From Methylopila capsulata (GTDB taxonomy: Bacteria > Pseudomonadota > Alphaproteobacteria > Rhizobiales > Methylopilaceae): 64,000 bases of DNA. The first letter of the stretch is position 1. Every line of letters starts with the position of its first letter. The stretch lies in the NCBI RefSeq assembly GCF_016907975.1, contig NZ_JAFBCY010000005.1, positions 62,001 through 126,000 of the forward strand. Reading direction: 5' to 3'. The notes beneath the pieces are model-generated. The model saw only the letters and a program-made list of their open reading frames with translations. It had not been told where the DNA came from and made no database searches. The position numbers were made by a program, and so were the translations under genes. This document shows, piece by piece, positions 13,674-30,174 of this stretch.

Positions 13674-14732
13674 GTGACGACCCCCCTCGCCCCCCACTGG
13701 CTCGCCTCTCCCGAACCTGGCGCCTCCTGCGCCGTCATCGCCGAGATCGCGCAGGCGCACGACGGCAGCCTGGGACAGGCGCACGCCTACGTGGACTGCG
13801 CCGCGCGGGCCGGCGCCCACGCCGTCAAGTTCCAGACGCACATCGCCCAGGCCGAAAGCACCGCCGCCGAGCCGTGGCGTCTCAAGTTTTCCCAACAGGA
13901 CGACAGCCGCTTCGACTATTGGCGGCGCATGGAGTTCACGGCCGAACAGTGGGCCGGCCTGAAGGAGCACGCGGAACGCCGCGGGCTGGTCTTCCTGAGT
14001 TCGCCGTTCTCGCCGGACGCCGTCGAGCTGCTGCGCAGGCTGGGCGTCGCTGCCTGGAAGGTCGCGTCGGGCGAGCTCACGAACCTGCCGATGATCGCCG
14101 AGATGGCGAAAGATCGACGGCCGATCATGCTCTCGACCGGGATGAGCCCGCTGGACGAGATCGACCCCTCGGTCGCGCTCGCGCGCGCCGCCGGAGCCCC
14201 GTTCTCCGTCTTTCAGTGCACCACGCGCTACCCCTCGCCGCCGGAGGCGATCGGCCTCAACGTGCTGGACGAGCTGCGCGCGCGCTACGGCTGCGCGGTC
14301 GGACTGTCGGACCATTCGGGTACGATTTTCCCGGCGCTGGCCGCGGTCGCGGCGCATCGCGCGGAGGTCGTCGAGGTCCACCTCACCATGAGCCGCGAGA
14401 TGTTCGGGCCTGACGTCGCCGCGTCGGTGACGCCGGACGAGCTGAAGACGATCGTGGAGGGCGTCGCCTTCGTCGAGCGCATGCGGGCGGCTCCCCTCGA
14501 CAAGACGGTGGTCGGGTCCGACGTCGCCGGCATGCGCGACATCTTTTTCAAGAGTGTGGTCGCGGCGCGCGACCTGCCGGCCGGCGCGCTGCTCGCCCGC
14601 GACGACCTCGCCCTGAAGAAGCCCGGGGGCGGGATTCCCGCCGCCGAGCTGGACACGCTGATCGGCCGCCGTCTCGCCCGGGACGTGGCGAGGGACACTC
14701 GGATTTTCCGCAAGGATATCGCACCGTCATGA
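13674..14732 (+). CDS. neuB: N-acetylneuraminate/nonulosonic acid synthase (NeuB-like)
   Basis: Condenses phosphoenolpyruvate with a 6-carbon amino sugar (ManNAc or a derivative) to give a nine-carbon nonulosonic acid. The TIM barrel begins with CAVIAEIAQAHDGSLGQAHAYV and KFQTHIAQAEST; further conserved segments are KVASGELTNLPMI, LSTGMSPLDEI, FQCTTRYPSPPEAIGLNV, VGLSDHSGTIFPALAAVA and the metal-binding EVHLTMSR. The C-terminal part (about 285-352, ending LIGRRLARDVARDT) is an SAF/antifreeze-like domain as in NeuB. The GTG start at 13674 gives 352 residues, the usual size. Its stop overlaps neuC by four bases. The substrate form (Neu5Ac, legionaminic or another) cannot be decided from motifs. 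Confidence 0.9.
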   Translation: MTTPLAPHWLASPEPGASCAVIAEIAQAHDGSLGQAHAYVDCAARAGAHAVKFQTHIAQAESTAAEPWRLKFSQQDDSRFDYWRRMEFTAEQWAGLKEHAERRGLVFLSSPFSPDAVELLRRLGVAAWKVASGELTNLPMIAEMAKDRRPIMLSTGMSPLDEIDPSVALARAAGAPFSVFQCTTRYPSPPEAIGLNVLDELRARYGCAVGLSDHSGTIFPALAAVAAHRAEVVEVHLTMSREMFGPDVAASVTPDELKTIVEGVAFVERMRAAPLDKTVVGSDVAGMRDIFFKSVVAARDLPAGALLARDDLALKKPGGGIPAAELDTLIGRRLARDVARDTRIFRKDIAPS

Positions 14733-15892
14733 CGCGAAAAGTCTGCGTGGTCATCACCGCGCGCCCAAGCTACTCACGCGTGCGGACGGCGCTCGAGGCG
14801 ATCCGGGACCATCCGGACCTCGAACTGCAGCTCGTCGTCGCCGCTTCGGCGCTGCTCGACCGCTACGGCGGCGCGATCAAGGTCATCGAGAGCGACGGCT
14901 TCAAGGTCGACAGAACCGTCTACATGATCGTCGAGGGGGAGAACCTCGTGACCTCGGCGAAATCGACCGGGTTCGGACTTGCCGAACTCGCGACCGTGTT
15001 CGACGATCTCAAGCCTGACATGGTCATCACCATCGCAGATCGCTACGAGACCATCGCGACGTCGATCGCCGCCGCCTACATGAACATTCCTCTGGTTCAT
15101 CTGCAGGGCGGGGAAGTCACCGGCTCGATCGACGAGAAGACCCGCCACGCCAACACCAAGCTCGCCGACGTCCATCTCGTCTGCTGCGAGAGCGCCCACA
15201 AGCGGGTGCAGCTTCTGGGCGAGCGGCCGGAACGGATCTTCTTGACCGGCTGCCCCTCCATCGACCTGGCTAGGCAGGCGCTGGAGGCCGACCCGGCCGA
15301 CATCTCGGCCATTGTCGGCCGCTACGCAGGCGTGGGGCCGGGGATCGACGTCACGCAGCCCTACGTCGTCGTGATGCAGCACCCCGTCACGACGGAGCAC
15401 GACCAGAGCCGCGCGCAGGCCGAGGCGCTCATCGACGCCGTCGAGGCGGCCGACAAGCCGACGCTCTGGTTCTGGCCCAACGTCGACGCAGGGTCGGACG
15501 GCACCTCGAAGGCGCTCCGCGTCGCGCGCGAGCACGGCAAGCTCAGGCGGACGCATTTCTACCGCAACATGCAGCCGCTCGACTTCCTCAAGGTGCTGAT
15601 CGGAAGCCGCGGCATCATCGGCAACTCCTCGGTCGCGCTGCGCGAATGCGCCTACCTCGGCGTGCCGGCCGTCAACATCGGAACGCGCCAACAGGGCCGC
15701 GACCGAGGCCGGAACGTCGTCGACGTCGGCTACGGGAGCGACGACATCGCCGCGGCCATCGAGCGGATGTGGACGCTGTCGGAACGGCCCCGCGACTTCA
15801 TCTACGGCGACGGGTTCGCGGGCAGGCGCATCGCCGAGGTGCTCGCGACCGCCGATCTCTCGATCGAAAAGATGCTGACCTACTCATGGTGA
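14729..15892 (+). CDS. neuC: Hydrolysing UDP-GlcNAc 2-epimerase (NeuC/LegG-like)
   Basis: Converts UDP-HexNAc to free ManNAc-type sugar plus UDP, providing the NeuB substrate. VCVVITARPSYSRVRTALEAI, ITIADRYETIATSIAAAYMNIPLVHLQGGEVTGSIDEKTRHANTKLADVH (read in parts) and GNSSVALRECAYLGVPAVNIGTRQQGRDRGRNV are characteristic of NeuC. HLQGGE and RHANTKLAD contain the conserved catalytic acidic and histidine residues of the 2-epimerase family. It is 387 residues long, normal for the family, and couples to neuB through an ATGA overlap and to neuA through a seven-base overlap. Free ManNAc rather than an epimerised UDP-sugar is expected from this subfamily. Confidence 0.9.
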   Translation: MTRKVCVVITARPSYSRVRTALEAIRDHPDLELQLVVAASALLDRYGGAIKVIESDGFKVDRTVYMIVEGENLVTSAKSTGFGLAELATVFDDLKPDMVITIADRYETIATSIAAAYMNIPLVHLQGGEVTGSIDEKTRHANTKLADVHLVCCESAHKRVQLLGERPERIFLTGCPSIDLARQALEADPADISAIVGRYAGVGPGIDVTQPYVVVMQHPVTTEHDQSRAQAEALIDAVEAADKPTLWFWPNVDAGSDGTSKALRVAREHGKLRRTHFYRNMQPLDFLKVLIGSRGIIGNSSVALRECAYLGVPAVNIGTRQQGRDRGRNVVDVGYGSDDIAAAIERMWTLSERPRDFIYGDGFAGRRIAEVLATADLSIEKMLTYSW

Positions 15893-16596
15893 GGGGCGAA
15901 CCGCTCACCGCGATCATTCCGGTCCGGGGCGGGTCAAAGGGCATCCCGGGGAAAAACATGCGCCCCGTCGGCGGCGCCACCTTGCTGGAGCGCGCCATCC
16001 GGTTCGCGCTGGCCAGCCCGCGGATCGACCGAGCCTGGGTTTCGACCGACGACGCGGAGATGCACGCCGTCGCCGGGCGTTACGACGTGCAGACGCCCGA
16101 GCTCCGTCCCGCCCACCTTGCCGACGACGCGGCGACCACGGCCTCCGTGGTCGCGCATCTGATCGGGCAAGGCCTGGTGCGCGACGGCTATCTTCTCATT
16201 CTTCAGGCCACGTCGCCGTTCCGGCGGCTCGACGATCTGGAGAACCTCTGCGCGGCTCTCGAGAGCTCTGACGCGGAAGCCGCCGTCAGCGTCGCCGTTC
16301 ATGACGAGCCTCGTCCGGAAAAGCTCAGAAGGATCGTCGACGGCCGGCTGGTTCCCTACCTCGACGCGGGCTTCGAGGGCCCTCGCCAGGCTCTGCCGCA
16401 GCCCTACCGGCTGAACGGAGCCTTCTACCTCATCTCCGTGCAGCGTTTCCTGCGCGACGGCGTGTTCCTTCCCGCAGGAACGCTGCCCTTCGTCATGCCC
16501 GAAGATCGAAGCCATAATCTCGATTCCCAGACGGACTGGGCGATCATGGAAGCGATGATCGCGACCGGCGGCTGGCGGCTCGAGGATCTGCCCTGA
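15886..16596 (+). CDS. neuA: CMP-nonulosonate cytidylyltransferase (NeuA-like)
   Basis: Activates a nonulosonic acid with CTP to CMP-sugar. IIPVRGGSKGIPGKNMRPVGG is the nucleotide-binding signature, followed by VSTDDAEMHAVA, LQATSPFRR and PYRLNGAFYLIS. The late acidic block EDRSHNLDSQTDW matches the metal/substrate site of CMP-sialate synthetases. ATG 15886 overlaps the neuC stop by seven bases and gives 236 residues. With neuB and neuC it completes a minimal sugar-to-CMP-nonulosonate pathway. No acetyltransferase, aminotransferase or dehydratase of the pseudaminic/legionaminic routes is present in the window. Confidence 0.9.
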   Translation: MVRGEPLTAIIPVRGGSKGIPGKNMRPVGGATLLERAIRFALASPRIDRAWVSTDDAEMHAVAGRYDVQTPELRPAHLADDAATTASVVAHLIGQGLVRDGYLLILQATSPFRRLDDLENLCAALESSDAEAAVSVAVHDEPRPEKLRRIVDGRLVPYLDAGFEGPRQALPQPYRLNGAFYLISVQRFLRDGVFLPAGTLPFVMPEDRSHNLDSQTDWAIMEAMIATGGWRLEDLP

Positions 16597-16751: not shown

Positions 16752-18497
16752 TTGGCAGCCGTCCCTCCGATCCCGGAACGCGCATCGCACCGACGGCTGG
16801 CGGGCCTGAACCAGCTCGCAACCGTTATTCCCTTGCGGCGCAGCGTCCTTATCCTGTTCTGCCTTGTGCTCGCAGGCGTCGCCGAAGGCCTGGGCGTCGC
16901 AAGCCTGCTGCCGCTGATCACCCTCATCGGCGAGGACGGCGGCGGCTCCAAAGGGGCCAAGGTCGCCGACGTCCTGAGCACCGTCGGCCTGCAACCGACG
17001 ATCGGCGTGTTCCTGGCGATTCTGGTCATCGGCATGGCGCTCAAGGCGACCCTCAGCCTGGTGGCGCTGCACCAGGTCGGCCGCGCCGTCGCCGACGTCG
17101 CGGTGAAGATGCGGCTCCAACTGATCGACGCGCTTCTCGCCGCGCGCTGGTCCTACTACGTGCGCCAACCGGTCGGGCGCTTCTCGAACGCCCTCGGCGG
17201 CGAAGCGAACCAGGCCGGCGAAACCTACAATCAGGCGGCCCAGCTGGTGGCGGACCTGATCCAGGTCGCGACCTACGTCACGATCGTGGCCCTGTTCTCG
17301 TGGAAGCTCGCGCTGCTGTCGCTCGCCGTCGGACTGCTGATGGTGCTGACGCTGAACCGGTTCGTGACCATCGCGAAGCGGACCGCCCGTAAGCAGAACC
17401 GTCACGTCAAGCGCATGATCGGCGGCCTCACGGACCTTCTCGTCGGCATCAAGCCCATGAAGGCCATGGGCCGCCACGCCCGCTTCCAGTCGCTGTTCGA
17501 GCGCGACGCCGAGACGATCCGCAGGGCGCAGCGCAAGCAGTCCTTCGCGCGCCACGCCAACAAGACGCTGCAGGAGCCGATCCTGGCCATCTGCCTCGCC
17601 GCCGGCATCTACGCGGCGCTAGTGCTTGGTAGCGCCCCTCCGGGAGAGGTGCTGGTGATGTCGGTCCTGCTGGTGCGGACCGTGACGACCATCGGCAAGG
17701 CCCAGCAAGGCCTGCAGGCTCTGCGCATCGCCGAAGCCGGTTTCGTGGCGGTGACGGAGACGATCGAGCTCGCCCGACGCGCGCGGGAATCGCTTCATCC
17801 CGGCGCGACGCCCAGCTTCGAGCGCGCGGTCGCGTTCCGGGACGTGAGCTTCGCCTACGACCGCGAGCCCGTCATCGAAAACGCGTCCTTCGAGGTTCCG
17901 AAGGGCCTCGTCACCACGATCACCGGCGGCTCGGGCGCGGGCAAGACCACCACCGTCGACCTGCTTCTCGGCCTGCACGAGCCGACCGCCGGCGAGATCT
18001 TGATCGACGGCGCGCCGCTGGCCGGCCTCGACCTCGTCGCCTGGCGGCGGATGACCGGCTACGTGCCGCAGGAGCTCATTCTGTTCCACGACACTTTGCT
18101 CTCGAACGTCACCCTCGGCCAACCGGAGTTCACCCGCGAGGACGTCGAGCGCGCGCTGGAGGCGGCCGGCGCGGCGGACTTTGTGGCGAAGCTGCCGGAG
18201 GGCGTCGAGACGATCGTGGGCGAGCGCGGGGCGCGGCTCTCCGGCGGGCAACGCCAGCGCATCGCCATCGCGCGGGCGCTGATCCACCGTCCGCAACTCC
18301 TCATCCTCGACGAGGCGACCACCGCGCTCGACCCCGACACCGAGGCCAACATCGTGCGCAACGTGATGGACCTCGCCCGCTCCACGGGCCTGACGGTGCT
18401 CGCGATTTCGCACCAGCCGGCCTGGGCTCGGGCGGCCGACCACGTGGTTCATCTGGCCGAGGGGCGCGTGGTGAAGGTTGACAGCCACGCCGCGTGA
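16752..18497 (+). CDS. Half-size ABC exporter, fused permease and ATPase (MsbA/PglK-like)
   Basis: A 581-residue type-IV ABC transporter half that works as a homodimer in the inner membrane. The N-terminal six-helix domain begins near SVLILFCLVLAGVAEGLGVASLLPLI. The ATPase domain (from about residue 355) has Walker A GGSGAGKTT, the Q-loop YVPQELILFHDT, signature LSGGQRQRIAIARAL, Walker B LLILDEATTALD and the switch region AISHQPAW. The AEGLGVASLLPLI pattern is shared with glycan or lipid-linked oligosaccharide exporters. It follows neuA by 155 bases, so export or flipping of a nonulosonate-containing glycan or lipid is the best guess. The TTG start is not certain. Confidence 0.85.
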   Translation: MAAVPPIPERASHRRLAGLNQLATVIPLRRSVLILFCLVLAGVAEGLGVASLLPLITLIGEDGGGSKGAKVADVLSTVGLQPTIGVFLAILVIGMALKATLSLVALHQVGRAVADVAVKMRLQLIDALLAARWSYYVRQPVGRFSNALGGEANQAGETYNQAAQLVADLIQVATYVTIVALFSWKLALLSLAVGLLMVLTLNRFVTIAKRTARKQNRHVKRMIGGLTDLLVGIKPMKAMGRHARFQSLFERDAETIRRAQRKQSFARHANKTLQEPILAICLAAGIYAALVLGSAPPGEVLVMSVLLVRTVTTIGKAQQGLQALRIAEAGFVAVTETIELARRARESLHPGATPSFERAVAFRDVSFAYDREPVIENASFEVPKGLVTTITGGSGAGKTTTVDLLLGLHEPTAGEILIDGAPLAGLDLVAWRRMTGYVPQELILFHDTLLSNVTLGQPEFTREDVERALEAAGAADFVAKLPEGVETIVGERGARLSGGQRQRIAIARALIHRPQLLILDEATTALDPDTEANIVRNVMDLARSTGLTVLAISHQPAWARAADHVVHLAEGRVVKVDSHAA

Positions 18498-18548: not shown

Positions 18549-20231
18549 ATGACGGACCGCCATCCCCCGCACGAGACCATCCTCGACGCGCTCGACGCCG
18601 CGGCGACGGGCGACCGCGGCTTCACATTCCATTCGGCGCGCGGCGAGGTCCTGGCCGATCTGCCCTACGCCCGGCTGCGCGACGACGCCCGCGCTCTGGC
18701 CGCCCGCCTGCTCGCCGCGGGCCTGACGCCGGGCGATCGCGTCGGCCTGATCGCCGAGACCGAGGCCGACTTCGTGCGGCTGTTCTTCGCCTGCGGCTAC
18801 GCCCGGCTGGTGCCGGCGCCGATGCCGCTGCCGATGGCCTTCGGCGGCCGCGAGACCTACCTCGCCCACATCCGCCGCATGGTGGAGACCGCGGACGCCG
18901 CGGCGGCCTTCGCGCCGGCCGCCCTCAAGGCGTGGCTGCTGGAGGCGGTCGACGGGCTGCCGCTGAAGCTCGCGGGGTCGATCGCGGACGTCCCCGAGGC
19001 GGAGGCCGGCGGCGACCTCGACCGTCCGGCGCCGGAGGATCTCGCCTACCTGCAGTTTTCCTCGGGCAGCACGCGCTTCCCGAAGGGCATCATGGTGACC
19101 CACGCGGCGCTGATGGCGAACGCCGCCGGGATCAGCCGCGCGGGGCTCGAAACCACGCCGGACGACCGCTGCGTGTCGTGGCTCCCGTTCTACCACGACA
19201 TGGGTCTCGTCGGCTTCATGCTCACGCCGATCGTGGCCGGGCTCTCGGTCGACTACCTCTCGACCCGCGACTTCGCGCGGCGGCCGCTGATGTGGCTGGA
19301 GCTGATCTCACGCAACCGCGCCACGATCTCCTACAGCCCGAGCTTCGGCTTCGAGCTCTCGGTGCAGCGCGCCGCGACGCTCGACCTCGGCGCGCTGGAC
19401 CTGACGTCCTGGCGGATCGCCGGCATCGGCGGCGACATGATCCGTCCCCATGTGCTGCGCCGCTTCGCCGATCGCTTCGCCGCCCACGGGTTCCGGCTCG
19501 GAAGCTTCGTGCCGAGCTACGGCATGGCCGAGGCCACGCTCGCGCTGTCCTTCGCGCCGCTCCGCGAGGGGCTCCGCACCGAGACGCTCGACCTCGACCG
19601 GCTGGAGAGCGACGGCGTCGCCGCGGCGGCGGGCGAAAGCGTCCGGACGCGCGAGTTCGTGCTGTGCGGCGCGGCCCTCCCCGGCCATGCGATCGAGGTC
19701 CGCGACCCCACGGGCGCGCCGCAGGCGGACCGCGCCGTCGGCCAGGTGTTCGCGCGGGGCCCGAGCCTGATGCAGGCCTATTTCCGCGAGGACGAGGCGA
19801 CGGCCGCCGCGATCGACGCCGCCGGCTGGCTCGACACCGGCGATCTCGGATACCTCGTCGACGGCCAGATCGTGATCACCGGCCGCGCCAAGGACCTGAT
19901 CCTGATCAACGGGCGGAACATCTGGCCTCAGGACATGGAGTGGGCGGCCGAAAGCGAGATCGCCGGCCTGCGCAGCGGCGACGTCGCCGTGTTCTCGGTG
20001 GACTCCGCCGACGACGAGGAGGTCGTGGCGCTAGTCCAGTGCCGCGCGAGCGCGCCCGACGTCCGCGAGGCGTTGCAAGCCGAGGTCGAAAAGGTGCTCA
20101 GGATGCGATTCGGCGTCGCGCCGGTCGTCCGGCTGGTCGGGGCGCACGCGCTGCCGGTCACGTCATCCGGAAAGCTCAGCCGGAGCCGCTCGCGGGAGCT
20201 CTATCTTTCGCTGGGTTCCGCTCAGGCCTGA
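18549..20231 (+). CDS. Fatty acyl-AMP ligase / acyl-ACP synthetase (candidate AasR-like, sphingolipid pathway)
   Basis: ANL-superfamily adenylating enzyme, 560 residues. It activates a fatty acid as acyl-AMP and is expected to load it on a carrier protein. The ATP-binding loop is YLQFSSGSTRFPKGIMVTH. WLPFYHDMGLVGFMLTPI is typical of fatty acyl-AMP ligases. SYGMAEATLALSF, then GWLDTGDLGYLVDGQIVITGRAKDLILINGRNIWPQD, mark the hinge, and the C-terminal lysine lies in SSGKLSRS. The gene precedes an acyl carrier protein and serine palmitoyltransferase in the same orientation. In Caulobacter an acyl-ACP synthetase, a dedicated ACP and Spt are all needed for ceramide synthesis, which is the basis for the role proposed here. 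There are 51 bases between the ABC exporter and this gene. Confidence 0.85.
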   Translation: MTDRHPPHETILDALDAAATGDRGFTFHSARGEVLADLPYARLRDDARALAARLLAAGLTPGDRVGLIAETEADFVRLFFACGYARLVPAPMPLPMAFGGRETYLAHIRRMVETADAAAAFAPAALKAWLLEAVDGLPLKLAGSIADVPEAEAGGDLDRPAPEDLAYLQFSSGSTRFPKGIMVTHAALMANAAGISRAGLETTPDDRCVSWLPFYHDMGLVGFMLTPIVAGLSVDYLSTRDFARRPLMWLELISRNRATISYSPSFGFELSVQRAATLDLGALDLTSWRIAGIGGDMIRPHVLRRFADRFAAHGFRLGSFVPSYGMAEATLALSFAPLREGLRTETLDLDRLESDGVAAAAGESVRTREFVLCGAALPGHAIEVRDPTGAPQADRAVGQVFARGPSLMQAYFREDEATAAAIDAAGWLDTGDLGYLVDGQIVITGRAKDLILINGRNIWPQDMEWAAESEIAGLRSGDVAVFSVDSADDEEVVALVQCRASAPDVREALQAEVEKVLRMRFGVAPVVRLVGAHALPVTSSGKLSRSRSRELYLSLGSAQA

Positions 20232-20496: not shown

Positions 20497-20637
20497 CGCA
20501 ACACTTGCCGGCGGAACGACCGGCCGGCGAAACATTCGGCCGAATTCGGCCCCGGGGGAGACATCACGCATGTGTAACACGCTGAATCCCCTGTTGATTT
20601 GCTGACATGCTCAGAAACTTTACAGATCGACGACAAC

Positions 20638-20670
20638 TCCATATTTTCCGCGCTGACAACGAAATATGGA
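20638..20670. promoter_or_regulatory. Inverted repeat upstream of the ACP gene
   Basis: TCCATATTT (20638-20646) and AAATATGGA (20662-20670) are perfect 9-base arms with a 15-base spacer, ending 21 bases before ATG 20692. The AT-rich arms stand out in GC-rich surroundings. It could be an operator or a 5'-leader hairpin; nothing in the sequence tells which. Confidence 0.4.
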
Positions 20671-20691
20671 TCCGTCCGCCTGGACGAAAAG

Positions 20692-20943
20692 ATGAGTGAA
20701 GAGAAAAACGAGTTGCTCGCCGAGATTTCCGAAGTGCTAGAGACGGTAGTCAATCGGCGGGTCGAGTTACGGACGGATATGAACATCGTGAACGATCTTG
20801 GCCTTGATTCAATTGCCGTGATGAACTTCTGCATGGCGCTGGAGGACAAGTTCGACATCTCGATTCCGCTGCATGACATGGCGAGTGTTGTGACCGTCGA
20901 CGATCTAGCGAAGACGATCCAAGCTCTGCGGAGTAATGCGTGA
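20692..20943 (+). CDS. Acyl carrier protein (sphingolipid locus)
   Basis: An 83-residue stand-alone carrier protein. The phosphopantetheine serine is Ser40 in NDLGLDSIAVMNF, followed by the acidic recognition helix ALEDKFDISIPLHD. ATG 20692 gives MSEEKNELLAEI, the usual helix-1 start; the longer frame from 20599 is not supported. It is visibly richer in A and T than its neighbours, with codons such as gta, tta and cta that are rare nearby. It is placed directly before serine palmitoyltransferase (one base between the stop and ATG 20945) and after an acyl-AMP ligase, so it probably presents the acyl group used by SPT. Caulobacter uses a comparable dedicated ACP for ceramide synthesis. Confidence 0.9.
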   Translation: MSEEKNELLAEISEVLETVVNRRVELRTDMNIVNDLGLDSIAVMNFCMALEDKFDISIPLHDMASVVTVDDLAKTIQALRSNA

Positions 20944-20944
20944 T

Positions 20945-22246
20945 ATGTCGATTTTTGGTAAGTTTGCGGCGCTCAGCGCGCGGTACGATCGTCTGAAGCA
21001 GAGCGGGGCCGATCCGTTTTCGGTGAAGTTCGACGACATCCTGTCCTCGGTCGAAGGCGTCGTGCGCGGCAAGAAGACCTTGCTGTTCGGCACCAACAAC
21101 TACCTCGGCCTGACCTTCGACGAGGTCGCCATGGAGATGTCGGCGGACGCCATCCGCCACCACGGCACCGGCACCACCGGCTCCCGCATCGCCAACGGCA
21201 GCTACAAGGTCCACGCCGAGCTCGAGCGCGAGCTCGCGGACTTCTACCGCCGCAAGCACTGCATGGTGTTCTCCACCGGCTATCAGGCCAACCTCGGCAT
21301 GATCTCGACGCTGGTCGGCAAGGACGACCACCTGTTCCTGGACGCCGACAGCCACGCCTCGATCTACGACGGCTCGCGCCTCGGCCACGCGCCGGTGGTC
21401 CGCTTCCGCCACAACAACCCCGACGACCTCGCCAAGCGCCTCCGCCGCCTCGCCGACCAGCCGGGCGACAAGCTGATCGTGGTCGAGGGCATCTACTCGA
21501 TGCTGGGCGACACCGCCCCGCTGAAGGAGTTCGTCGACGTCAAGCGCGAGTACGGCGCCTACCTGATGGTGGACGAAGCGCACTCCATGGGCGTGCTCGG
21601 CCGCGACGGCCGCGGCCTCGCCGAGCGTGAGGGCGTCGAGGACGACGTCGACTTCGTGGTCGGCACCTTCTCGAAGAGCCTCGCCAGCGTCGGCGGCTTC
21701 TGCGTCTCGAGCCTCGAGGGCTTCGAGATCCTGCGGCTCGCCTCGCGGCCCTACATGTTCACGGCCTCGCTGCCGCCCTCGATCATGTCCTCGACGATCT
21801 CGGCGCTGAAGACGCTGCGGCGCGAGCCGGAGCGTCGGACGAAGCTCACCGCCAACAGCCGCCGGTTCTACAACGGCCTGCGCGGCGCCGGCTTCAACGT
21901 CGGCCCGGAGTGCACCCCGATCGTGGCGGTCATCATCGACAACCCCGACATCGCGGTGGCGTTCTGGAAGCGGCTGCTAGAGGAGGGCATGTACCTCAAC
22001 CTCGCGCTGCCGCCCGCAACGCCGAACGCGTCAGCCTTCCTGCGCTCCAGCGTCAGCGCGGCGCATTCGGACGAGCACATCGACTTCGCGATCGCCCTGA
22101 TGACCCGCATCGGCCGCGAATTCGGCCTGCTGCCGAACGAGACCAACGTCTGCCCGTTCCCGGTCAGCGCAGAACGCCTCGGCGCCACAGCCGCCACAGC
22201 ACGGGCCCTGCCGACAGCAGTGGGTGCCGGCGCTGGAATGGCGTGA
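20945..22246 (+). CDS. spt: Serine palmitoyltransferase (alpha-oxoamine synthase family)
   Basis: PLP enzyme that condenses an acyl thioester with serine to 3-ketosphinganine, the first step of sphingoid base synthesis. Key sites are NNYLGLTFDEVAMEM, HGTGTTGSRIANGSYKVHAELE, FSTGYQANLGMIS, DADSHASIYDG, VVEGIYSMLGD, DEAHSMGVLG and the Schiff-base lysine K244 in GTFSKSLASVGG. The family also contains 8-amino-7-oxononanoate and 2-amino-3-ketobutyrate enzymes. GVEDDVDFVVGTFSKSLASVGGF (read in part) and the dedicated ACP next door favour SPT. ATG 20945 is placed 11 bases after a GGAG; ATG 20936, overlapping the ACP stop, is the alternative. The last 83 bases overlap the 3' end of the opposing gene. 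Confidence 0.88.
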   Translation: MSIFGKFAALSARYDRLKQSGADPFSVKFDDILSSVEGVVRGKKTLLFGTNNYLGLTFDEVAMEMSADAIRHHGTGTTGSRIANGSYKVHAELERELADFYRRKHCMVFSTGYQANLGMISTLVGKDDHLFLDADSHASIYDGSRLGHAPVVRFRHNNPDDLAKRLRRLADQPGDKLIVVEGIYSMLGDTAPLKEFVDVKREYGAYLMVDEAHSMGVLGRDGRGLAEREGVEDDVDFVVGTFSKSLASVGGFCVSSLEGFEILRLASRPYMFTASLPPSIMSSTISALKTLRREPERRTKLTANSRRFYNGLRGAGFNVGPECTPIVAVIIDNPDIAVAFWKRLLEEGMYLNLALPPATPNASAFLRSSVSAAHSDEHIDFAIALMTRIGREFGLLPNETNVCPFPVSAERLGATAATARALPTAVGAGAGMA

Positions 22247-23120
22247 CGACGATCGCGTGGCCCGAGTGCCGCTCGATCTTCCAGGCGATGTAGTCCACGC
22301 CGCCTGAGAACGTGAAGACCGCCTTGGCGAGCCGCGCGAGATTGAGCGGCTTCGCCAGGCGCCGCCGCCGGGCCCAGGCCTTCGCGGCTTTGGCGCGGCT
22401 CTCCGGAGCGACGCGCGGCGACAGCGCCCCATCCGTCTCCGTCGCGAACGGCACGCCCTCCGCGGCCCATCCCAGCGTCAGCATGCGCGCAAAGCGCTCC
22501 GGCGCCCGCTCGACGATCGAGGACGGCCGCGCGGCGCTCTCCACCCGCAGCTCCGAGGCGTAGGTGCGCTGGAACAGCGCCGTCCAGAACGCCGCCGCCG
22601 GCCCGCGCTCCGGCCCCAGATGCGCCGCCCACCACGCCGCGGCGCCGACCGCGGTCGCCACCGCATCCGCGATCGCCCTCGCTGCGGCTTCGTCGCGCGC
22701 GTAAGGCAGGGCCGCCGGCTGGCAGAAGCGCGTCCAGATCGTGGTGTCGCGGCTCAGAGCCCGGGCGTGGCGCGCGAACTGCGCCACCGACATGATCGCC
22801 ACCTTGGCGCGGAGCTGCGGGGCGTCGCCTGCGCTCTCGGCGTACTCCACGTTCGGCGGCAGCAGCCGGTTGCCCGCGGTCGCGAACCGGCTCTGGTTCC
22901 ACGCCGCGAGGTCGTCGAGCAGCACGTAGAAGTCGAGCAGGCCGTCGGTCTCGCCGGTGCGCAGCGCCGAGCCGTAGAACAGCACGCCCGCGACGCCCCC
23001 TCCCCCGCGCGCCGCCAGCTCGGCCGCGAAGGCCCGCACGGCCTCAGGCTGAGGCGCGGCGAGCTCCGCGGCGACGGCGGACGTCAGGGGCGCTCGTGCG
23101 GGGTTCGGGAGAGGCGGCAT
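22164..23120 (-). CDS. Nucleotidyltransferase-fold protein of the lipid locus
   Basis: A 318-residue protein with an apparent nucleotidyltransferase core near residues 45-70: VLFYGSALRTGETDGLLDFYVLLDD, a GS followed by spaced acidic residues. The C-terminal half (AVFTFSGGVDYIAWKIERHSG) resembles what I recall of proteins annotated as phosphatidate cytidylyltransferase/Tam41-like, but I am unsure. ATG 23120 is preferred; upstream codons to 23219 lie in non-conserved sequence. It is encoded convergently with SPT, whose 3' end it overlaps by 83 bases, and lies upstream of no gene on its own strand in this locus. Its place beside a lipid kinase and a CDP-alcohol phosphatidyltransferase suggests a role in headgroup activation; substrate unknown. 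Confidence 0.7.
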   Translation of the reverse strand: MPPLPNPARAPLTSAVAAELAAPQPEAVRAFAAELAARGGGGVAGVLFYGSALRTGETDGLLDFYVLLDDLAAWNQSRFATAGNRLLPPNVEYAESAGDAPQLRAKVAIMSVAQFARHARALSRDTTIWTRFCQPAALPYARDEAAARAIADAVATAVGAAAWWAAHLGPERGPAAAFWTALFQRTYASELRVESAARPSSIVERAPERFARMLTLGWAAEGVPFATETDGALSPRVAPESRAKAAKAWARRRRLAKPLNLARLAKAVFTFSGGVDYIAWKIERHSGHAIVVTPFQRRHPLLSAGPVLWRLWRRGVLR

Positions 23121-23226
23121 GGGATCAGAGCGCTTTGGGTGGGGATGTTCGGGGGCCGGGATGGGAAGCGAAGATGGCGGTTTGTGACCCGCGCCGGTTG
23201 CATCCACGTGACGAACCACGACGTCA

Positions 23227-23369: not shown

Positions 23370-24287
23370 TCAATACGTCACGAACGTCACCGCCGGCCCG
23401 GTCGCGATCTCGACCTTGCGGTCGGGACCGGCGTGGAACGTGTCGCCGTCGAGGATGAAGGGCGCGGCGAGGTCGAGCGCGACGTGGTCCGCGCGCTGGC
23501 TGACGTAGCCGGCCTCCGCCATCCACGGGGCCGGGCTCCGCCGGCCGACCGCGAGCAGCGCCCGCGCCAGCCGCCGCGGCGGCGCGGCGACGTCGAGCAG
23601 GCGGATCGCGCCCTCGCCCTCGCCCCAGAACGGCCAGAGCCCCAGCATGAGCTTGTGGAGCGAGGTCGCGAGCAGGACGAAGCGGTCTTGCGCGACGGCG
23701 GGCCCGCCGTCGACCGCGACGGAGGCGGCGACGCCGCTGCGCCACGCCTGCCGCTCGGCCCCGGAGAACGCGGCGCTGATGCTGGAGGCGACCGCCAAGC
23801 CAAGGCCGACGCCCTGCGCGAAGCCGCGCTTGTGGACCTGGGCGTTGGCGAGCCGGACGCCGCGCTCGAAGGCGCCGCAGCCGAACACGAAGCCGTAGCG
23901 CGTGACGCCGTCCGCGGTGACCCGCATCGGCCGGCGGATCTCGCGGCGGCGCGGCGGCGCGCCGGACGCGACCGCCGCGGCCAGGCCTGCGAGGTCCTTC
24001 ACGCCGCCGACGTCCGCCGCCGCCACGTTGGTCTTGCCGCGGGGCACGAAGGCGATCGGCGGCGGCGCGCCGTCGTAGGCCGCGATCAGCGCGGTGAGCG
24101 CCTCGCGCAGGGTGCCGTCGCCGCCGGCGATCGCGATCACCCCGACGCCGCCGGCCTTCAGCCGGGCGATGGCCGGGGCGTAGCCGTCGATCCCGTCGGG
24201 CGTTTCCGCCACGACGCCGGGCGCGCCGACAAGGCCCTCGACGCCGCGCCAGCTCTTGGCGTTCGCGAGAACGCCAAGCGTCGTCAC
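23370..24287 (-). CDS. Lipid kinase with DAGK catalytic domain (candidate ceramide/sphingoid kinase)
   Basis: A 305-residue kinase of the diacylglycerol/sphingosine kinase superfamily. IAIAGGDGTLREAL is the nucleotide-binding GGDGT loop at about residues 50-63, and PIAFVPRGKTNVAAADV is the second substrate-binding block, here with GKTN where many relatives read GTxN. GTG 24287 is fixed by the GTGA overlap with the upstream gene; the frame continues open to 25520 but that part is the shadow of the neighbour. Next to SPT, a ceramide or sphingoid base is a sensible acceptor: Caulobacter has a ceramide kinase of this superfamily in its sphingolipid locus (CpgB). Diacylglycerol is the alternative substrate. 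Confidence 0.82.
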   Translation of the reverse strand: MTTLGVLANAKSWRGVEGLVGAPGVVAETPDGIDGYAPAIARLKAGGVGVIAIAGGDGTLREALTALIAAYDGAPPPIAFVPRGKTNVAAADVGGVKDLAGLAAAVASGAPPRRREIRRPMRVTADGVTRYGFVFGCGAFERGVRLANAQVHKRGFAQGVGLGLAVASSISAAFSGAERQAWRSGVAASVAVDGGPAVAQDRFVLLATSLHKLMLGLWPFWGEGEGAIRLLDVAAPPRRLARALLAVGRRSPAPWMAEAGYVSQRADHVALDLAAPFILDGDTFHAGPDRKVEIATGPAVTFVTY

Positions 24288-25420
24288 GCCGCGTCCAGCC
24301 AGGAGACGATCGGCGTGCGGCGGCGGGCGATCACCGCCTGGACGATCTGGGCGGTGTGCACGAGGAAGCTCAGCACGATCCACACGATCACGGCGTACAT
24401 CCCGAGATCGGGACGGCCGAAGAGCGTGAAGGCCGTCAGCAGCACCAGGTTCGGATTGCGGCGGGCGGTGATCAGCCGGAAGAAGCTGTCGAACGGCCGC
24501 CAGACGTGCATGTGCATCCCGAACAGCCTGAGGAAGATGCCTTCCTCCACCCGCTGCAGGATGTAGCCGCCGAAGATGATCGCGATCATCCACTCGGCCC
24601 CGGCTCCCGAAAACCCGGCCGCCGGAAGGCCGAAGACCCAGGCCATCCACCAGAACGGCGGGTGCACCAGGTCGATGCCGTGGTCCAGCACGTTGCCGAA
24701 CTCGCTCGAGGTCATGGTGACGCGGGCGAGCTTGCCGTCGACGGTGTCGAGGAAGGTCATGATCCAGGCGGCGACCAGTCCCGTGCCGTAGTGCCCGTTC
24801 CAGAACGCCCAAAGCGCGTAGAACACCAGCGCGAGGCCGACATAGGTGACCGCGTTCGGCGTTATCCGGCGCACGGCGCACCACTTGGTCACGATGCGCG
24901 CCGGAACCGGCCAGACGTATTTGGTGACCGCGTCGGTGACGCCCTTGTAGGAGCCCGCGAAGCTGCGCGCCTCGACCTCGTCCACCGTCTCGGGGCTGAG
25001 CGGGATCAGGTAGGCGATCTCGCGCTTGCGCAACTTCCTGTTGTAGGAGCCGGCGAGCCCCTCGGAATCGAGCCGCTCCACCGTCGCGGGCAGCCCCGTG
25101 GCCGCCCCCTGCGCGATGGCCGCGGCCACGCCCGGCGCCTCGGCCGCCGGCACATGCGCCGCGACCGGGACCGCCCCGTCGAGCAGCACGGCGCCCGGCC
25201 GCTCGGCCAGCGCGTCGATCAGACGCTGCTCGAACGCGTAGTCCACGCGCAGCAGCAGAACCGCGCCCTGGTCGGGAAGCGCATCCGCCGTTTCGCGCAC
25301 CTCCGCCACGCCGGCGCGCGCAAGCTGTCGGGTCAGGCGTTCGGCCGAGGACATCCCCCAGATGCGCGCGTCGGACCGTCCGAGAAGGACAGCGACGGCT
25401 GCCTGGCGTAGCTGCGTCAT
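24284..25420 (-). CDS. CDP-alcohol phosphatidyltransferase with N-terminal extra domain
   Basis: Inner-membrane enzyme of 378 residues. It carries a complete CDP-alcohol phosphotransferase motif, DG-x2-AR-x8-G-x3-D-x3-D, as DGKLARVTMTSSEFGNVLD followed by HGID at about residues 222-244, so the active site is intact. Hydrophobic segments follow. The first roughly 150 residues are not part of this domain. They look like a remnant nucleotidyltransferase-type fold (VLLLRVDYAFEQRLIDALAERPGAVLLDG) without an obvious LAAGxG loop, an architecture resembling fused IPCT/DIPPS-type enzymes. It overlaps the lipid kinase by four bases and is divergent from the HIT-LptF-LptG operon. The proposed role is headgroup transfer to a sphingolipid or phospholipid acceptor. 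Confidence 0.85.
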   Translation of the reverse strand: MTQLRQAAVAVLLGRSDARIWGMSSAERLTRQLARAGVAEVRETADALPDQGAVLLLRVDYAFEQRLIDALAERPGAVLLDGAVPVAAHVPAAEAPGVAAAIAQGAATGLPATVERLDSEGLAGSYNRKLRKREIAYLIPLSPETVDEVEARSFAGSYKGVTDAVTKYVWPVPARIVTKWCAVRRITPNAVTYVGLALVFYALWAFWNGHYGTGLVAAWIMTFLDTVDGKLARVTMTSSEFGNVLDHGIDLVHPPFWWMAWVFGLPAAGFSGAGAEWMIAIIFGGYILQRVEEGIFLRLFGMHMHVWRPFDSFFRLITARRNPNLVLLTAFTLFGRPDLGMYAVIVWIVLSFLVHTAQIVQAVIARRRTPIVSWLDAA

Positions 25421-25534
25421 AATTTGGTCGTCCGCATCGTCGTTCGTGTGAATGCGTGCTCTTTAAAGCCGAAACGCCTATCCTGCCAGCCGCCGCGTCC
25501 ATGGCGCTCCCCCAAGCCAACGCACTCGAAGCCC

Positions 25535-25972
25535 ATGCCCAATCCTACGATGATCAAGTTCGGCCACCCCGAGACCGTGGTCGGGGAGACCGACCTGTGG
25601 TCGATCCAGATCCGCCCGAAGCAGCCCGGCTTCGGGTCTCTGGTGCTGGTCTGCAAGGAGGACGCCTCCGCCTTCGGCGCCTTGAGCCCTGCGGCGTTCG
25701 CGGAGCTGGGTCGCGTCGTCGCGAGCCTGGAGCCGGCGCTGAAGCGCTTGGCCGGCTACGACAAGATCAACTATCTGATGCTGATGATGGTCGACCCCGA
25801 CGTCCACTTTCACGTGATCCCCCGCCACGAGACGCCGCGCGCCTTCGAGGGCGTGACCTTCGTCGACGCCGGATGGCCCGGGCCGCCCGCGCTCGGCGAG
25901 GGACCCGAACTCGACGCCCGGACCATCGCCGCGCTCCGGACCGCCCTGGCGGCCATCTGGACCGCGCCGTGA
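25535..25972 (+). CDS. HIT-family protein
   Basis: A 145-residue histidine-triad-fold protein. The conserved core is YDKINYLMLMMVDPDVHFHVIPRHE. The canonical triad is H-x-H-x-H; here the first histidine is aspartate (DVHFH), as in some HIT-like branches, so hydrolase activity on nucleotide conjugates cannot be assumed. ATG 25535 is chosen; ATG 25550 is an in-frame alternative and the frame further upstream is not conserved. It is the first gene of a tightly overlapping run (HIT, LptF, LptG, N-acyltransferase, NTP transferase) and its stop overlaps the LptF start (GTGA). The product might act on a nucleotide-activated headgroup intermediate; this is conjecture. Confidence 0.82.
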   Translation: MPNPTMIKFGHPETVVGETDLWSIQIRPKQPGFGSLVLVCKEDASAFGALSPAAFAELGRVVASLEPALKRLAGYDKINYLMLMMVDPDVHFHVIPRHETPRAFEGVTFVDAGWPGPPALGEGPELDARTIAALRTALAAIWTAP

Positions 25973-27207
25973 CGCAACCGTCCAAGGCGCGCGGAACGGC
26001 GCTCGGCTTCGGCCTGCTGCAGCGCTACGTCACGGGGCTGGCGCTGCGGCCGATGATGCTGTCGCTGGGCGTGGTGCTCGCGGGGCTGCTGCTCGAGCGC
26101 GTGCTGCGCATCGTCGACGTGCTGGCCGCGGCGGGAGCCCCGGTCTATCTCGTGTTCGCGCTCTCGGCGAACCTCGTCCCGCATTACCTCGGCTTCGCCA
26201 TGCCGGCCGCCTTCGCGCTCGGCGTGTTCGCGGCGTTCTCGCGGCTGTCGAGCGGGTCCGAACTCGAGTCGATGCTGTCCTCGGGCGTCTCGGTCTGGTC
26301 GCTGGCGAAGCCGCTGATGGCGATCGGCGCCGTGATCGCCGCGCTCAACCTGCTGGTCTCCGGCTACCTCGACCCCTACAGCCGCTACAGCTACCGCGCG
26401 ATCCTGAACTCCTCGGTGTCCTACGCCTGGCGTGCGCACGCGCCGGCCGCCACCTTCATCAACGTCCGCGACGGGCTGACCGTCACCGCCGACGAGGTCG
26501 ACAACACCGGGCGCAACCTGACGGGCGTCTTCATCGAGGATCGCGCCGGCGACCTCGAGACCCTGACCACGGCGCGCGCCGGCAAGCTCGAGGTGACGCC
26601 GGACGGAAAGCAGCTCCAGCTGCGGCTCTCCGACGGCGTCGTGCTGCGCAACGCCGATGGGCAGCGTCCGAACACGCTCCGGTTCCGCGAGCTGGTGTTC
26701 GACAAGAAGTTCGCTCTGGAGGCGCCGCCCTTCCGCCCGCGCGGCGGCAACGAGCGCGAGATGACGATGAACGAGCTCTGGAGCGAGATGGGCGAGGCCG
26801 CGCCCTCGGCCTCCTATCCCAAGCTGTCGGCGGAGTTCCACTCGCGCATCGTCCGCTCGCTCGCGATCGTGTTCCTGCCGCTGCTGATCATCCCGTTGAG
26901 CATGACGATGCGGCGGCAGAACCGGGTGGCCAACATGGGGGTCGCGGCGCTCGCGCTGATCCTGTTCCAGAACGTGCTGCAGATCGGGGAGACGCTCGCC
27001 GAAAAAGGCTTGGCCCCCGCGCCGCTGCTGACCTGGGGGCCGCTGGCCGGCCTCGTGCTGGTCTCGGCGTTCCTGTTCACGACCGGCACAGATCGACCGG
27101 GGGATTCCGCGATCTCGCGCTTCACCGACCAGCTCTCGGCGCTCGGCGCCGCGGCGGGGCGCGCGCTCGCGCCGCTGTTCCGCCGTCGGGCGGCCGCGAG
27201 GGGCTGA
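25969..27207 (+). CDS. LptF-like permease (YjgP/YjgQ family)
   Basis: A 412-residue inner-membrane protein of the LptF/LptG family. It has transmembrane segments near the N-terminus (LSLGVVLAGLLLERVLRIVDVLAAA), a periplasmic jellyroll-like middle (about 150-270, ATFINVRDGLTVTADEV onward) and C-terminal membrane helices (RSLAIVFLPLLIIPLSM). AMPAAFALGVFAAFSRLSSGSELESMLSSGVS is the conserved coupling-helix region. GTG 25969 is set by the four-base overlap with the HIT gene. Canonical alphaproteobacterial lptFG normally sit with lptD, surA, pdxA and ksgA. This pair sits in a lipid locus instead, so it is probably a paralogue moving another lipid. No dedicated LptB ATPase is encoded nearby. Confidence 0.88.
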   Translation: MTQPSKARGTALGFGLLQRYVTGLALRPMMLSLGVVLAGLLLERVLRIVDVLAAAGAPVYLVFALSANLVPHYLGFAMPAAFALGVFAAFSRLSSGSELESMLSSGVSVWSLAKPLMAIGAVIAALNLLVSGYLDPYSRYSYRAILNSSVSYAWRAHAPAATFINVRDGLTVTADEVDNTGRNLTGVFIEDRAGDLETLTTARAGKLEVTPDGKQLQLRLSDGVVLRNADGQRPNTLRFRELVFDKKFALEAPPFRPRGGNEREMTMNELWSEMGEAAPSASYPKLSAEFHSRIVRSLAIVFLPLLIIPLSMTMRRQNRVANMGVAALALILFQNVLQIGETLAEKGLAPAPLLTWGPLAGLVLVSAFLFTTGTDRPGDSAISRFTDQLSALGAAAGRALAPLFRRRAAARG

Positions 27208-28319
27208 TGCGCGTTCTCCGCTACATGAGCCTGCGCTTCCTTGCGCTCGCGACCGTCGCCACCCTCGTGCTCGCCTCGATCGCGGAGGTGCTCGACCTCG
27301 TGGACAACGCGGGCGACATCCTCGATCGCGGCCAGGGCGCCGCGGGCTTCGGAACCTACCTGCTGCTGCGCGTGCCGACGCTGATCTCCCACGCCATTCC
27401 GCTCGGCGTTCTGGTCGGCGCGCTGATGACGCTCAGCCTGCTGGCCCGCAACAGCGAGATCGTCGCGATGCGGGCCTCGGGGCGCAGCTCCTGGAACCTG
27501 TTCGCGATGATGTTCCCGGCCGCCTTCGTGATCGCGAGCGTCCATTGCGTGCTGCTGGACGCGGTGCTGCCGAAGACCGAGCAGCGGCTCGCGCTGTGGT
27601 GGGCGGAGGGCCAGGATCCGAAGTTCGACGGTGCCAAGCCCGTGTGGCTGCGGATCGGCGACGACGTCGTGTCGTTCGAGGGCATCGCGAACCGCGGCCG
27701 GACGCTGAAGAACCTCAAGGTGTTCGAGCGGGCGCCCGACAAGACCGCGACGGGAAAGCTGACGGCGGCGGAGGCCCGCTGGGAGAAGAAGCGCTGGATG
27801 CTGACAGGCGGGACCTACGCCTCGTTCAAGCGCGGAGCCTCGAACGCGGCCACGCCGGCGGACGGGGAGTGGAAAACCACCTTCACCCCGGCCGACGCCG
27901 TCGCCGCCATGGAGCCCTTCGGCCAGATTTCCGCCGCGGCGGCGCAGGCCGTGATCAGCGGCCAGCGGGTGGCGAACGCGCCGCTCTCGTTCTACGAAAC
28001 CCAGTTCCACCGGGTCTTCGCGGCCCCCATGGCGGCCGTCGTCATGCTGCTGCTCGCGATGCCGGGCGCCTTCGTGAACTGGCGCGACGCACGCTCGGCG
28101 AAGCACGCCATGGCCGGGCTCGCGCTCGGCCTCGTCTTCCTGGTCTGCGACGGGCTGCTGACCTCGCTCGGTCTCGCGGCGATTCTGCCGCCGATCGTCG
28201 CCGCCTGGTCCGGAACCGTCCTGTTCCTCGGGATCGGCGCCTTGAACCTCAACCGCATGGAGCAGGGCCTCGCGCGGCCGAGCCGCCGGCGGACGCTCGC
28301 CCTGGAGACCGGCCGATGA
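27207..28319 (+). CDS. LptG-like permease (YjgP/YjgQ family)
   Basis: Partner of the preceding LptF-like protein, 370 residues. ATG 27207 shares one base with the upstream stop (TGATG). The conserved segments are LRVPTLISHAIPLGVLVGALMTLSLLARNSEIVAMRASG (coupling region), a periplasmic domain in the middle (VSFEGIANRGRTLKNLKVFE) and three C-terminal helices (VFAAPMAAVVMLLLAMPGAFV onward). The two proteins would form the transmembrane core of an Lpt-type ABC machine that extracts a lipid from the inner membrane. The ATGA overlap with the following N-acyltransferase gene suggests co-translation. Confidence 0.88.
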   Translation: MRVLRYMSLRFLALATVATLVLASIAEVLDLVDNAGDILDRGQGAAGFGTYLLLRVPTLISHAIPLGVLVGALMTLSLLARNSEIVAMRASGRSSWNLFAMMFPAAFVIASVHCVLLDAVLPKTEQRLALWWAEGQDPKFDGAKPVWLRIGDDVVSFEGIANRGRTLKNLKVFERAPDKTATGKLTAAEARWEKKRWMLTGGTYASFKRGASNAATPADGEWKTTFTPADAVAAMEPFGQISAAAAQAVISGQRVANAPLSFYETQFHRVFAAPMAAVVMLLLAMPGAFVNWRDARSAKHAMAGLALGLVFLVCDGLLTSLGLAAILPPIVAAWSGTVLFLGIGALNLNRMEQGLARPSRRRTLALETGR

Positions 28320-29440
28320 GCCAGATCGACGTCCGTCCGGTGGAGGGCAAGCGCGACCTCGACCGCTTCATCACGCTGCCGAACCGGCTGCAGGCGGCCG
28401 ACCCGAACTACGTCGCGCCGCTGATGATGGAGCGGCGCGAGTCGCTATCGCCGGCCAAGAACCCGCTGTTCCGGCACGTCGACGCGCAGTTCTTCCTGGC
28501 CTGGCGCGACGGCGTTCCGGTCGGCCGCATCAGCGCCCAGAGCGACGACCGGGTGGCCGACTGCGGCCACTTCGGCCTGCTCGCGGGCGAAGACGACCCC
28601 GAGGTGTTCCGCGCCCTGTTCGCGGCCGCCGAGGGCTGGCTGAAGGCGAAGGGCCGGACGGAGGTCCGCGGGCCGTTCAACCTGTCGATCAACGAGGAGT
28701 GCGGCCTGCTGATCGACGGCTTCGACACCCAGCCGATGCTGTTCATGCCGCACGACGCGCGTTACGTCGCGGCCCGCGTCGAGGAGCAGGGCTACGCCAA
28801 GGCGATGGACCTGTTCGCCTATCTGCACCTCACCAGCGACCCCTTCCCCAAGGCGATCGAGCGCATCATCGAGCGCCCGCGGCCGCCGGAGGTCGTGGTG
28901 CGGCACCTCGACTGGAAGCGCTACGACGAGGAGATCGCGACCGTCATCGACATCTTCAACGACGCCTGGTCGGAGAACTGGGGCTTCGTGCCGTTCAGCC
29001 CGGAAGAGCTCCATCACCTCGCGAAGTCGCTGAAGCTGCTGATCGACGAGCGGCTGCTCTGGATCGTCGAGGTGTCCGGCCGCGCCGCGGCCTTCGGCGT
29101 CGGGCTGCCGAACCTGAACGAGATGATCGCGGACTTCGACGGCAAGCTGCTGCCGTTCAACTGGGCGAAGCTCGTCTGGCGGCTGAAGCGCATGACCTAC
29201 ACCAGCGGTCGGGTGGCGCTGATGGGCGTGCGCAAGGAGTACGCCCGCTCGTTCCTCGGGCGCGCCATGCCGATCTACATCTTCGACGAGTTCCGCAAGG
29301 AGGGTCGCCGCCGCGGGATCGAGCGGGTCGAGATGTCCTGGGTGCTCGAGAGCAACATGCCGATGCGGCACATGGGCGAGGCGCTCTCGAACGGCTCCGC
29401 CTACAAGACCTACCGCATCTACCGCAAGGCGCTGGCGTGA
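28316..29440 (+). CDS. GNAT-fold N-acyltransferase, candidate bacterial ceramide synthase (bCerS)
   Basis: A 374-residue protein with two GNAT-like halves. The N-terminal pattern includes FITLPNRLQAADPNYVAPLMMERRE, KNPLFRHVDAQFFLAWRDGVPVGRI and RGPFNLSINEECGLLIDGFDTQPML. The second half has WSENWGFVPFSPEELHHLAKSLK and a C-terminal NMPMRHMGEALSNGSAYKTYRIYRK that resembles an acyl-CoA-binding end. This is the kind of protein reported as ceramide synthase in Caulobacter (CC_1154, an N-acyltransferase unrelated to eukaryotic ceramide synthases); I recall the resemblance but could not align them. Its operon partners LptF/LptG and the nearby SPT support acylation of a sphingoid base. A generic N-acetyltransferase is the alternative. 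Confidence 0.62.
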   Translation: MSQIDVRPVEGKRDLDRFITLPNRLQAADPNYVAPLMMERRESLSPAKNPLFRHVDAQFFLAWRDGVPVGRISAQSDDRVADCGHFGLLAGEDDPEVFRALFAAAEGWLKAKGRTEVRGPFNLSINEECGLLIDGFDTQPMLFMPHDARYVAARVEEQGYAKAMDLFAYLHLTSDPFPKAIERIIERPRPPEVVVRHLDWKRYDEEIATVIDIFNDAWSENWGFVPFSPEELHHLAKSLKLLIDERLLWIVEVSGRAAAFGVGLPNLNEMIADFDGKLLPFNWAKLVWRLKRMTYTSGRVALMGVRKEYARSFLGRAMPIYIFDEFRKEGRRRGIERVEMSWVLESNMPMRHMGEALSNGSAYKTYRIYRKALA

Positions 29441-30174
29441 CCCGCACCGCGCTCGTGCTGGCGGGCGTCCGGCCGGGCCGCGACGCGCTCGCCGACTTCG
29501 CCGGCGTCACCCACAAGGCCCTGATCCCGATCGGCGGCGTTCCCATGGTGGAGCGGGTGATCGCGGCGCTGCGCGACAGCGGCCGGATCGACCGCATCGT
29601 CGTCTCGATCGACCGGCCGGAGCTGATCGACCTTCCCGGCGTCGAGATCCTGACGTCGTCGACCTCGGTCAGCCGGAGCGTGGGCGAGGCCTTCGAGGCG
29701 CTCGGCGCGCCTCTGCTCGTCACCACCGCCGACCACGCGCTGCTGGAGCCGGAGTGGATCCGCTGGTTCCTCGACCACCTGCCGGACGCGGACGTGGTGG
29801 CGGGGCTGGCGCGCGACCGCGACGTGATGGCGGCGGCGCCGGACACCAAGCGCACCTTCCTGCGCTTCCGCGACGGCCGCTTCTCCGGCTGCAACCTGTT
29901 CTACCTGCGCGACCCGCGGGCCGTGCGGGCGATCCAGATGTGGCAGATCGTGGAGAACGAGCGGAAGAAGCCCTTCACCCTGCTCCGCCGGCTGGGAGTG
30001 AGGGCCGTGGTCGCCGCCCTGTTCGGGCGCCTGACGCTTGGCTACGCCATGCGCCGGATCGAGCAGATCGCCGGCTGCTCGGCGGGGGTCGTCGAGCTGC
30101 CCTTCGGCCGCGCGGCGATCGACGTCGACAAGCCGTCCGACCTGATGCTGGTCCGGAAGATGGTCGAGGGCTGA
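29437..30174 (+). CDS. MobA-like NTP transferase
   Basis: A 245-residue nucleotidyltransferase of the MobA/NTP_transf_3 type. It has an altered loop at the N-terminus, LVLAGVRPGRDALADFAGVTHKALIPIGGVPMVERV, in place of the usual LAGGxGxRMG, then VTTADHALLEPEWI with the metal-binding aspartate and GCNLFYLRDP. The acidic IDVDKPSDL near the C-terminus matches the second metal site of the family. GTG 29437 overlaps the preceding stop (GTGA) and this is the last gene of the operon. It may activate a headgroup precursor with CTP or GTP; the substrate is unknown. Confidence 0.78.
   Translation: MTRTALVLAGVRPGRDALADFAGVTHKALIPIGGVPMVERVIAALRDSGRIDRIVVSIDRPELIDLPGVEILTSSTSVSRSVGEAFEALGAPLLVTTADHALLEPEWIRWFLDHLPDADVVAGLARDRDVMAAAPDTKRTFLRFRDGRFSGCNLFYLRDPRAVRAIQMWQIVENERKKPFTLLRRLGVRAVVAALFGRLTLGYAMRRIEQIAGCSAGVVELPFGRAAIDVDKPSDLMLVRKMVEG

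Follow-up and report, generated by a model that had tools for sequence, protein, structure and literature searches.

The route by which bacterial sphingolipids reach the outer membrane was called unknown in two papers from 2024 (PMC11324152, PMC11087976). In Caulobacter, the steps of serine palmitoyltransferase (SPT) and ceramide synthase (CerS) take place in the cytoplasm and that of the ceramide reductase CerR in the periplasm; the transporters were not known (PMC11087976). Olea-Ozuna et al. (2024) named the Caulobacter proteins LptC2, LptF2 and LptG2 and proposed, from annotation and cofitness, that they transport a phosphosphingolipid; the cofitness of CC_1156 (LptF2) with CC_1159, a predicted phosphoglycerate transferase, is 0.60 (PMC11324152).

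The idea of sphingolipid transport by LptF2/LptG2 is already published for Caulobacter (PMC11324152); here we add a further case together with comparative evidence, i.e., phyletic pattern, trees and residues rather than annotation and cofitness. A literature search, in which few subscription journals and preprints were covered, found no prior report of the counting rule, of the retention of Lpt proteins with only type-2 permeases in genomes that lack LpxC, or of the headgroup refinement described below; a study of gene essentiality in Zymomonas (PMC10746277) contains nothing on lpt genes.

The case comes from a 64,000-nucleotide stretch of the genome of the methylotroph Methylopila capsulata, referred to as the window, and concerns LptF and LptG, the two membrane proteins that in LPS export extract LPS from the inner membrane. 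It contains the same lptF2-lptG2-cerS gene order as Caulobacter crescentus CC_1156-CC_1155-CC_1154, which lie within a ceramide/phosphosphingolipid region (PMC11324152). The Caulobacter cluster also harbors a proposed LptC2 (CC_1168) and CerR, neither of which was found in the Methylopila window.

The window locus and the Lpt genes of the genome

The features of the sphingolipid cluster are as follows.

16752..18497, + strand: ABC exporter, from its position a candidate ceramide-lipid flippase (ABC_membrane 1.4e-18, ABC_tran 1.9e-30)
18549..20231, + strand: fatty acyl-AMP ligase (FAAL), the acyl-ACP synthetase of the ceramide core (NCBIfam NF006624, 809 bits, cut-off 600)
20599..20943, + strand: acyl carrier protein (ACP) for SPT (Pfam PP-binding 4e-11)
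20936..22246, + strand: SPT (NCBIfam NF047599, 668.8 bits, cut-off 500)
22164..23219, - strand: conserved cluster protein, probable headgroup gene (no Pfam or NCBIfam match; homologue in most type-2 loci)
23370..24287, - strand: lipid-kinase-like protein, candidate ceramide kinase (DAGK_cat 4e-9; homologue in most type-2 loci)
24284..25420, - strand: CDP-alcohol phosphatidyltransferase, candidate headgroup transferase (CDP-OH_P_transf 2.6e-12)
25424..25972, + strand: HIT-domain protein, first gene of the operon (Pfam HIT 1.8e-4; kept beside lptF2 in several families)
25969..27207, + strand: lptF2, sphingolipid-type LptF permease (PF03739 5.1e-63, 213.7 bits; S clade)
27207..28319, + strand: lptG2, sphingolipid-type LptG permease (PF03739 3.6e-63, 214.2 bits; S clade)
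28316..29440, + strand: N-acyltransferase occupying the place of the bacterial ceramide synthase (CerS/CC_1154; GNAT Pfam 1.9e-4; ATGA overlap with lptG2)
29437..30174, + strand: MobA-like/cytidylyl NTP transferase, last overlapping gene (NTP_transf_3 3.5e-13, CTP_transf_3 1.7e-8; GTGA overlap)

A preliminary description of this DNA placed the pair in a HIT/N-acyltransferase operon within a lipid locus, which agrees with the order HIT-lptF2-lptG2-ceramide synthase-nucleotidyltransferase and with the SPT, ACP and FAAL genes nearby. Each gene shares a few bases with the next (GTGA for HIT/lptF, TGATG for lptF/lptG, ATGA for lptG/cerS and GTGA for cerS/NTP transferase), and the five genes are therefore probably translated together. 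The GTG start of lptF2 overlaps the stop of the HIT gene, whose own true start probably lies further downstream than 25424. The pair is thus linked to ceramide synthase, SPT and kinase genes, as expected of LptF2/LptG2 of phosphosphingolipid clusters, and in most of the loci compared the N-acyltransferase in the CerS position adjoins the type-2 pair. The ABC exporter adjoins the FAAL gene in the Methylopilaceae loci L017-L022. In loci L195, L198, L202 and L203 the CerR gene lies between those for FAAL and ACP, but tblastn gave no CerR match in the window or in any other locus of the Methylopilaceae set (L016-L022); it may be encoded elsewhere in the genome, or may have been replaced.

Directly upstream of the sphingolipid cluster, at 13674-16596, are genes for NeuB, a UDP-GlcNAc 2-epimerase (NeuC-like) and a NeuA-like cytidylyltransferase, the last assigned from reading the open reading frame; together they suggest a nonulosonic-acid pathway. 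These genes would fit a model in which the permeases serve a different lipid or glycoconjugate from this locus, e.g., a nonulosonic-acid glycolipid, and SPT is linked to them by genomic position only. Such a model is highly improbable, however, given that the genes that recur beside the pair in the further families compared are those for CerS, SPT, the kinase and nucleotidyltransferases.

Both permeases belong to the LptF_LptG family: their PF03739 scores are far above the curated Pfam cut-off of 27.9 bits and their matches span the full profile (positions 1-351 and 1-350 for LptF2 and LptG2, respectively). The best NCBIfam match is LptF for the first gene and LptG for the second, and relatives of the window LptG are found in Methylopila, Hansschlegelia and Chenggangzhangella. 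A whole-genome profile search of the 4.1 Mb genome, rated 100% complete, yielded four LptF_LptG genes, i.e., two pairs. The other pair is found on contig C1 in the order lptF-lptG-lptD-surA-pdxA, so that the pair of the window is indeed an extra one, away from the canonical LPS-export genes, as had been proposed, and the possibility of its being the only lptFG pair in the genome is excluded. The window locus lacks LptB, LptC and LptA, also as described earlier; each is found in one copy, clustered on another contig (C2:239-241 kb). There is one LptD and one detectable LptC; an LptC profile search of the genome gave no second LptC at E<=0.1. No second LptB was found, the next-best ABC ATPase scoring 168 bits against a cut-off of 240. 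LpxC has two matches in this genome.

One explanation to be considered is that LptF2/LptG2 is a redundant or condition-specific second extractor of LPS (lipid A) that lies in a lipid cluster by chance. Membership of the LptF_LptG family is in line with this explanation, as is the presence of LpxC in its genome, which suggests that LPS is made. Yet the window pair falls below the LPS equivalog cut-offs that the lptD-linked pair of the same genome passes: LptF2 scores 194.9 bits with TIGR04407 (cut-off 230; canonical LptF 265.9), and LptG2 scores 225.8 bits with TIGR04408 (cut-off 240; canonical LptG 287.3).

Trees and co-occurrence across alphaproteobacteria

Tree entries were labelled from neighbourhood only, i.e., S for sphingolipid genes and C for lptD/surA/pdxA; locus L163, where the single S match was a 26% acyl-ligase, was labelled C by hand. 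The trees suggested in the preliminary description show two clean clades, one lptD-linked and the other sphingolipid-linked, with a single change of label needed in each of the LptG (86 rows) and LptF (87 rows) trees, and both window proteins fall in the sphingolipid-linked clade. A joint tree of LptF and LptG kept all four groups apart, and each S/C split was roughly comparable in depth to the divergence from E. coli. All of these trees came from quick searches with SH-aLRT support, which is low (49) for the LptG S clade in the joint tree. Because the S/C split has approximately the depth of that between the alphaproteobacterial and E. coli proteins, the window pair is, judged from these trees, an old paralogue and not the product of a local duplication. 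A recent gene duplication is ruled out by the same depth.

To relate pair number to lipid type, 289 alphaproteobacterial genomes were scanned as one set for LptF/LptG, SPT and LpxC, where LpxC is a stand-in marker for LPS and its absence is the complement of the listed positives. Two LptFG pairs were found in 17/18 genomes with both SPT and LpxC, but in only 2/233 with LpxC and no SPT (Fisher p=3e-23, a value that ignores kinship and so overstates independence). In one of the latter two (G282), a single locus carries a divergent SPT, CerS, a kinase and a type-2 pair. In the other (G018), the second LptFG-like pair (L088, C2:499772-501927) lies at a remote site and has no recognizable sphingolipid neighbours. 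Within each of the families f14, f29, f43, f77 and f109, members with SPT have two pairs and members without it have one. Across alphaproteobacteria the second pair therefore tracks sphingolipid rather than LPS genes, and its near absence from LpxC-positive genomes without SPT argues against a second LPS extractor.

Loss of LpxC is strongly associated with SPT, which is found in 25/38 LpxC-negative and 18/251 LpxC-positive genomes. Among the 25 genomes with SPT and no LpxC, 23 retain LptD along with a single complete LptFG pair, which is always of the sphingolipid-neighbour type; that no other complete pair is found in any of these 23 is difficult to reconcile with LPS extraction. LptD is present in all 23, LptA and LptB each in 22/23 (both are missing from G163, a 160-contig draft), and an LptC match (PF06835) in 19/23.

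These numbers also bear on whether LptF2/LptG2 exports a sphingolipid by a route of its own, with LptC2/LptA-like partners or none, and has only LptB in common with LPS export. The proposed LptC2 (CC_1168) of the Caulobacter cluster (PMC11324152) favors a separate route. The window's genome, in contrast, has one detectable LptC, LptA and LptD, PF06835 yields no clear second LptC in the SPT-containing genomes of the set (extra weak matches fall on LptA genes), and the sphingolipid genomes without LpxC retain LptD and LptA as counted above. We consider a separate route unlikely; LptF2/LptG2 probably borrows LptC, LptA and LptD as well as LptB, as far as gene content can tell.

From the above counts, the number of LptFG pairs was found here to equal LPS plus complex sphingolipid. 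Three SPT-containing genomes depart from a count based on SPT alone: G064, with LpxC, has only the canonical pair, and G055 and G235 (loci L198/L201), without LpxC, have none of LptA, LptB, LptC, LptD, LptF and LptG, although both genomes are large and essentially complete. All three encode a ceramide core (FAAL-CerR-ACP-SPT-CerS); the roughly 20-60 kb inspected around SPT contain no gene of the kinase, nucleotidyltransferase or CDP-alcohol type. Because these exceptions show the ceramide core only over that distance, the pattern suggests that LptF2/LptG2 follows the headgroup genes, i.e., a complex phosphosphingolipid rather than bare ceramide. The three genomes obey such a rule only if they have no headgroup genes at all, and several loci of family f12, in which the pair has no kinase or headgroup gene nearby, count against it. 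On balance, a headgroup-bearing phosphosphingolipid is a more likely substrate than bare ceramide.

Residues on the LptB and substrate sides

In E. coli, the coupling-helix glutamates E84 of LptF and E88 of LptG are needed for LptB binding (PMC5082905). The corresponding glutamates are kept in 45/45 LptF and 46/46 LptG proteins of the S group, including E98 of the window LptF2 and E84 of LptG2, and the pair thus has the expected tandem F and G arrangement with the coupling-helix glutamate. On the substrate side, K40 and K41 of E. coli LptG contact the 4'-phosphate of lipid A and the inner core (PMC6744409). C proteins have Arg at both positions (33/37 each) and S proteins mostly have Gly/Asp and Asp/Glu there, a difference to be read with caution as K40E/K41E had no effect on growth in E. 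coli (PMC5548808). In TM1 of LptF, at E. coli positions 29/30, S proteins have Glu-Arg/Lys (43/45 and 45/45) and C proteins mostly Thr/Gln; two further S-specific residues, Tyr59 and Ala63, lie in TM2. The E. coli LPS-phosphate residues K34 and R136 of LptG proved useless as discriminators: position 34 is mostly Asp in S and C proteins alike, and Arg at 136 is not kept as a rule in either.

This residue pattern fits a scenario with the same motor and a different cargo. The retained glutamates would equally suit a second LPS extractor, but the Arg-Arg at LptG positions 40/41 is replaced, mostly by Gly, Asp or Glu, and with the tree, score and distribution data in mind we regard LPS extraction by the window pair as very unlikely. 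Compared with the canonical LptF/LptG of LptB2FGC, the window-type pair has the same fold family, tandem arrangement and LptB-coupling glutamates, and presumably the same ATPase and bridge; it differs in forming a separate deep clade, in its neighbours, in scoring below the LPS-equivalog cut-offs, in its conserved cavity-side residues and in being retained without LpxC.

A putative route for a ceramide-based phospholipid

The preliminary description had proposed a dedicated exporter for a non-LPS lipid, perhaps the sphingolipid, that borrows LptB, and this proposal gains support from the co-occurrence with SPT (17/18 versus 2/233), the neighbourhood, the two-clade trees, the LptB-coupling glutamates and the single LptB. 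We therefore think it quite probable that the window pair represents LptF2/LptG2 and provides the membrane subunits of a further Lpt extractor, one devoted to a ceramide-based phospholipid, which would use the common LptB and LptC-LptA-LptD bridge.

In the proposed sequence of events, ceramide would be made by FAAL, ACP, SPT and CerS, and an anionic headgroup would be added by the kinase, the CDP-alcohol transferase and the nucleotidyltransferases. The headgroup-bearing lipid would then have to cross the inner membrane, possibly with the neighbouring ABC exporter as its flippase. The choice of flippase is a guess; in G227 a polysaccharide-flippase-like gene lies beside the ceramide core, where the window has the ABC exporter. 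LptF2/LptG2, assembled with the genome's only LptB, would lift the lipid out of the periplasmic leaflet and pass it to the common LptC-LptA-LptD bridge, by which it would reach the outer membrane.

More generally, and with somewhat less assurance, we favor a model in which Lpt is a two-substrate exporter, where exchangeable LptFG modules, one for LPS and one for a headgroup-bearing sphingolipid, operate on one LptB and one LptC-LptA-LptD bridge. After loss of LPS in alphaproteobacteria, the whole bridge would then survive purely as a sphingolipid exporter. The pattern in the number of pairs makes the question of the sphingolipid route directly testable. If the model is true, it would explain why sphingolipid makers without LPS keep an LPS export machine, and the Lpt bridge would turn out to be an all-purpose lipid carrier with interchangeable loaders.
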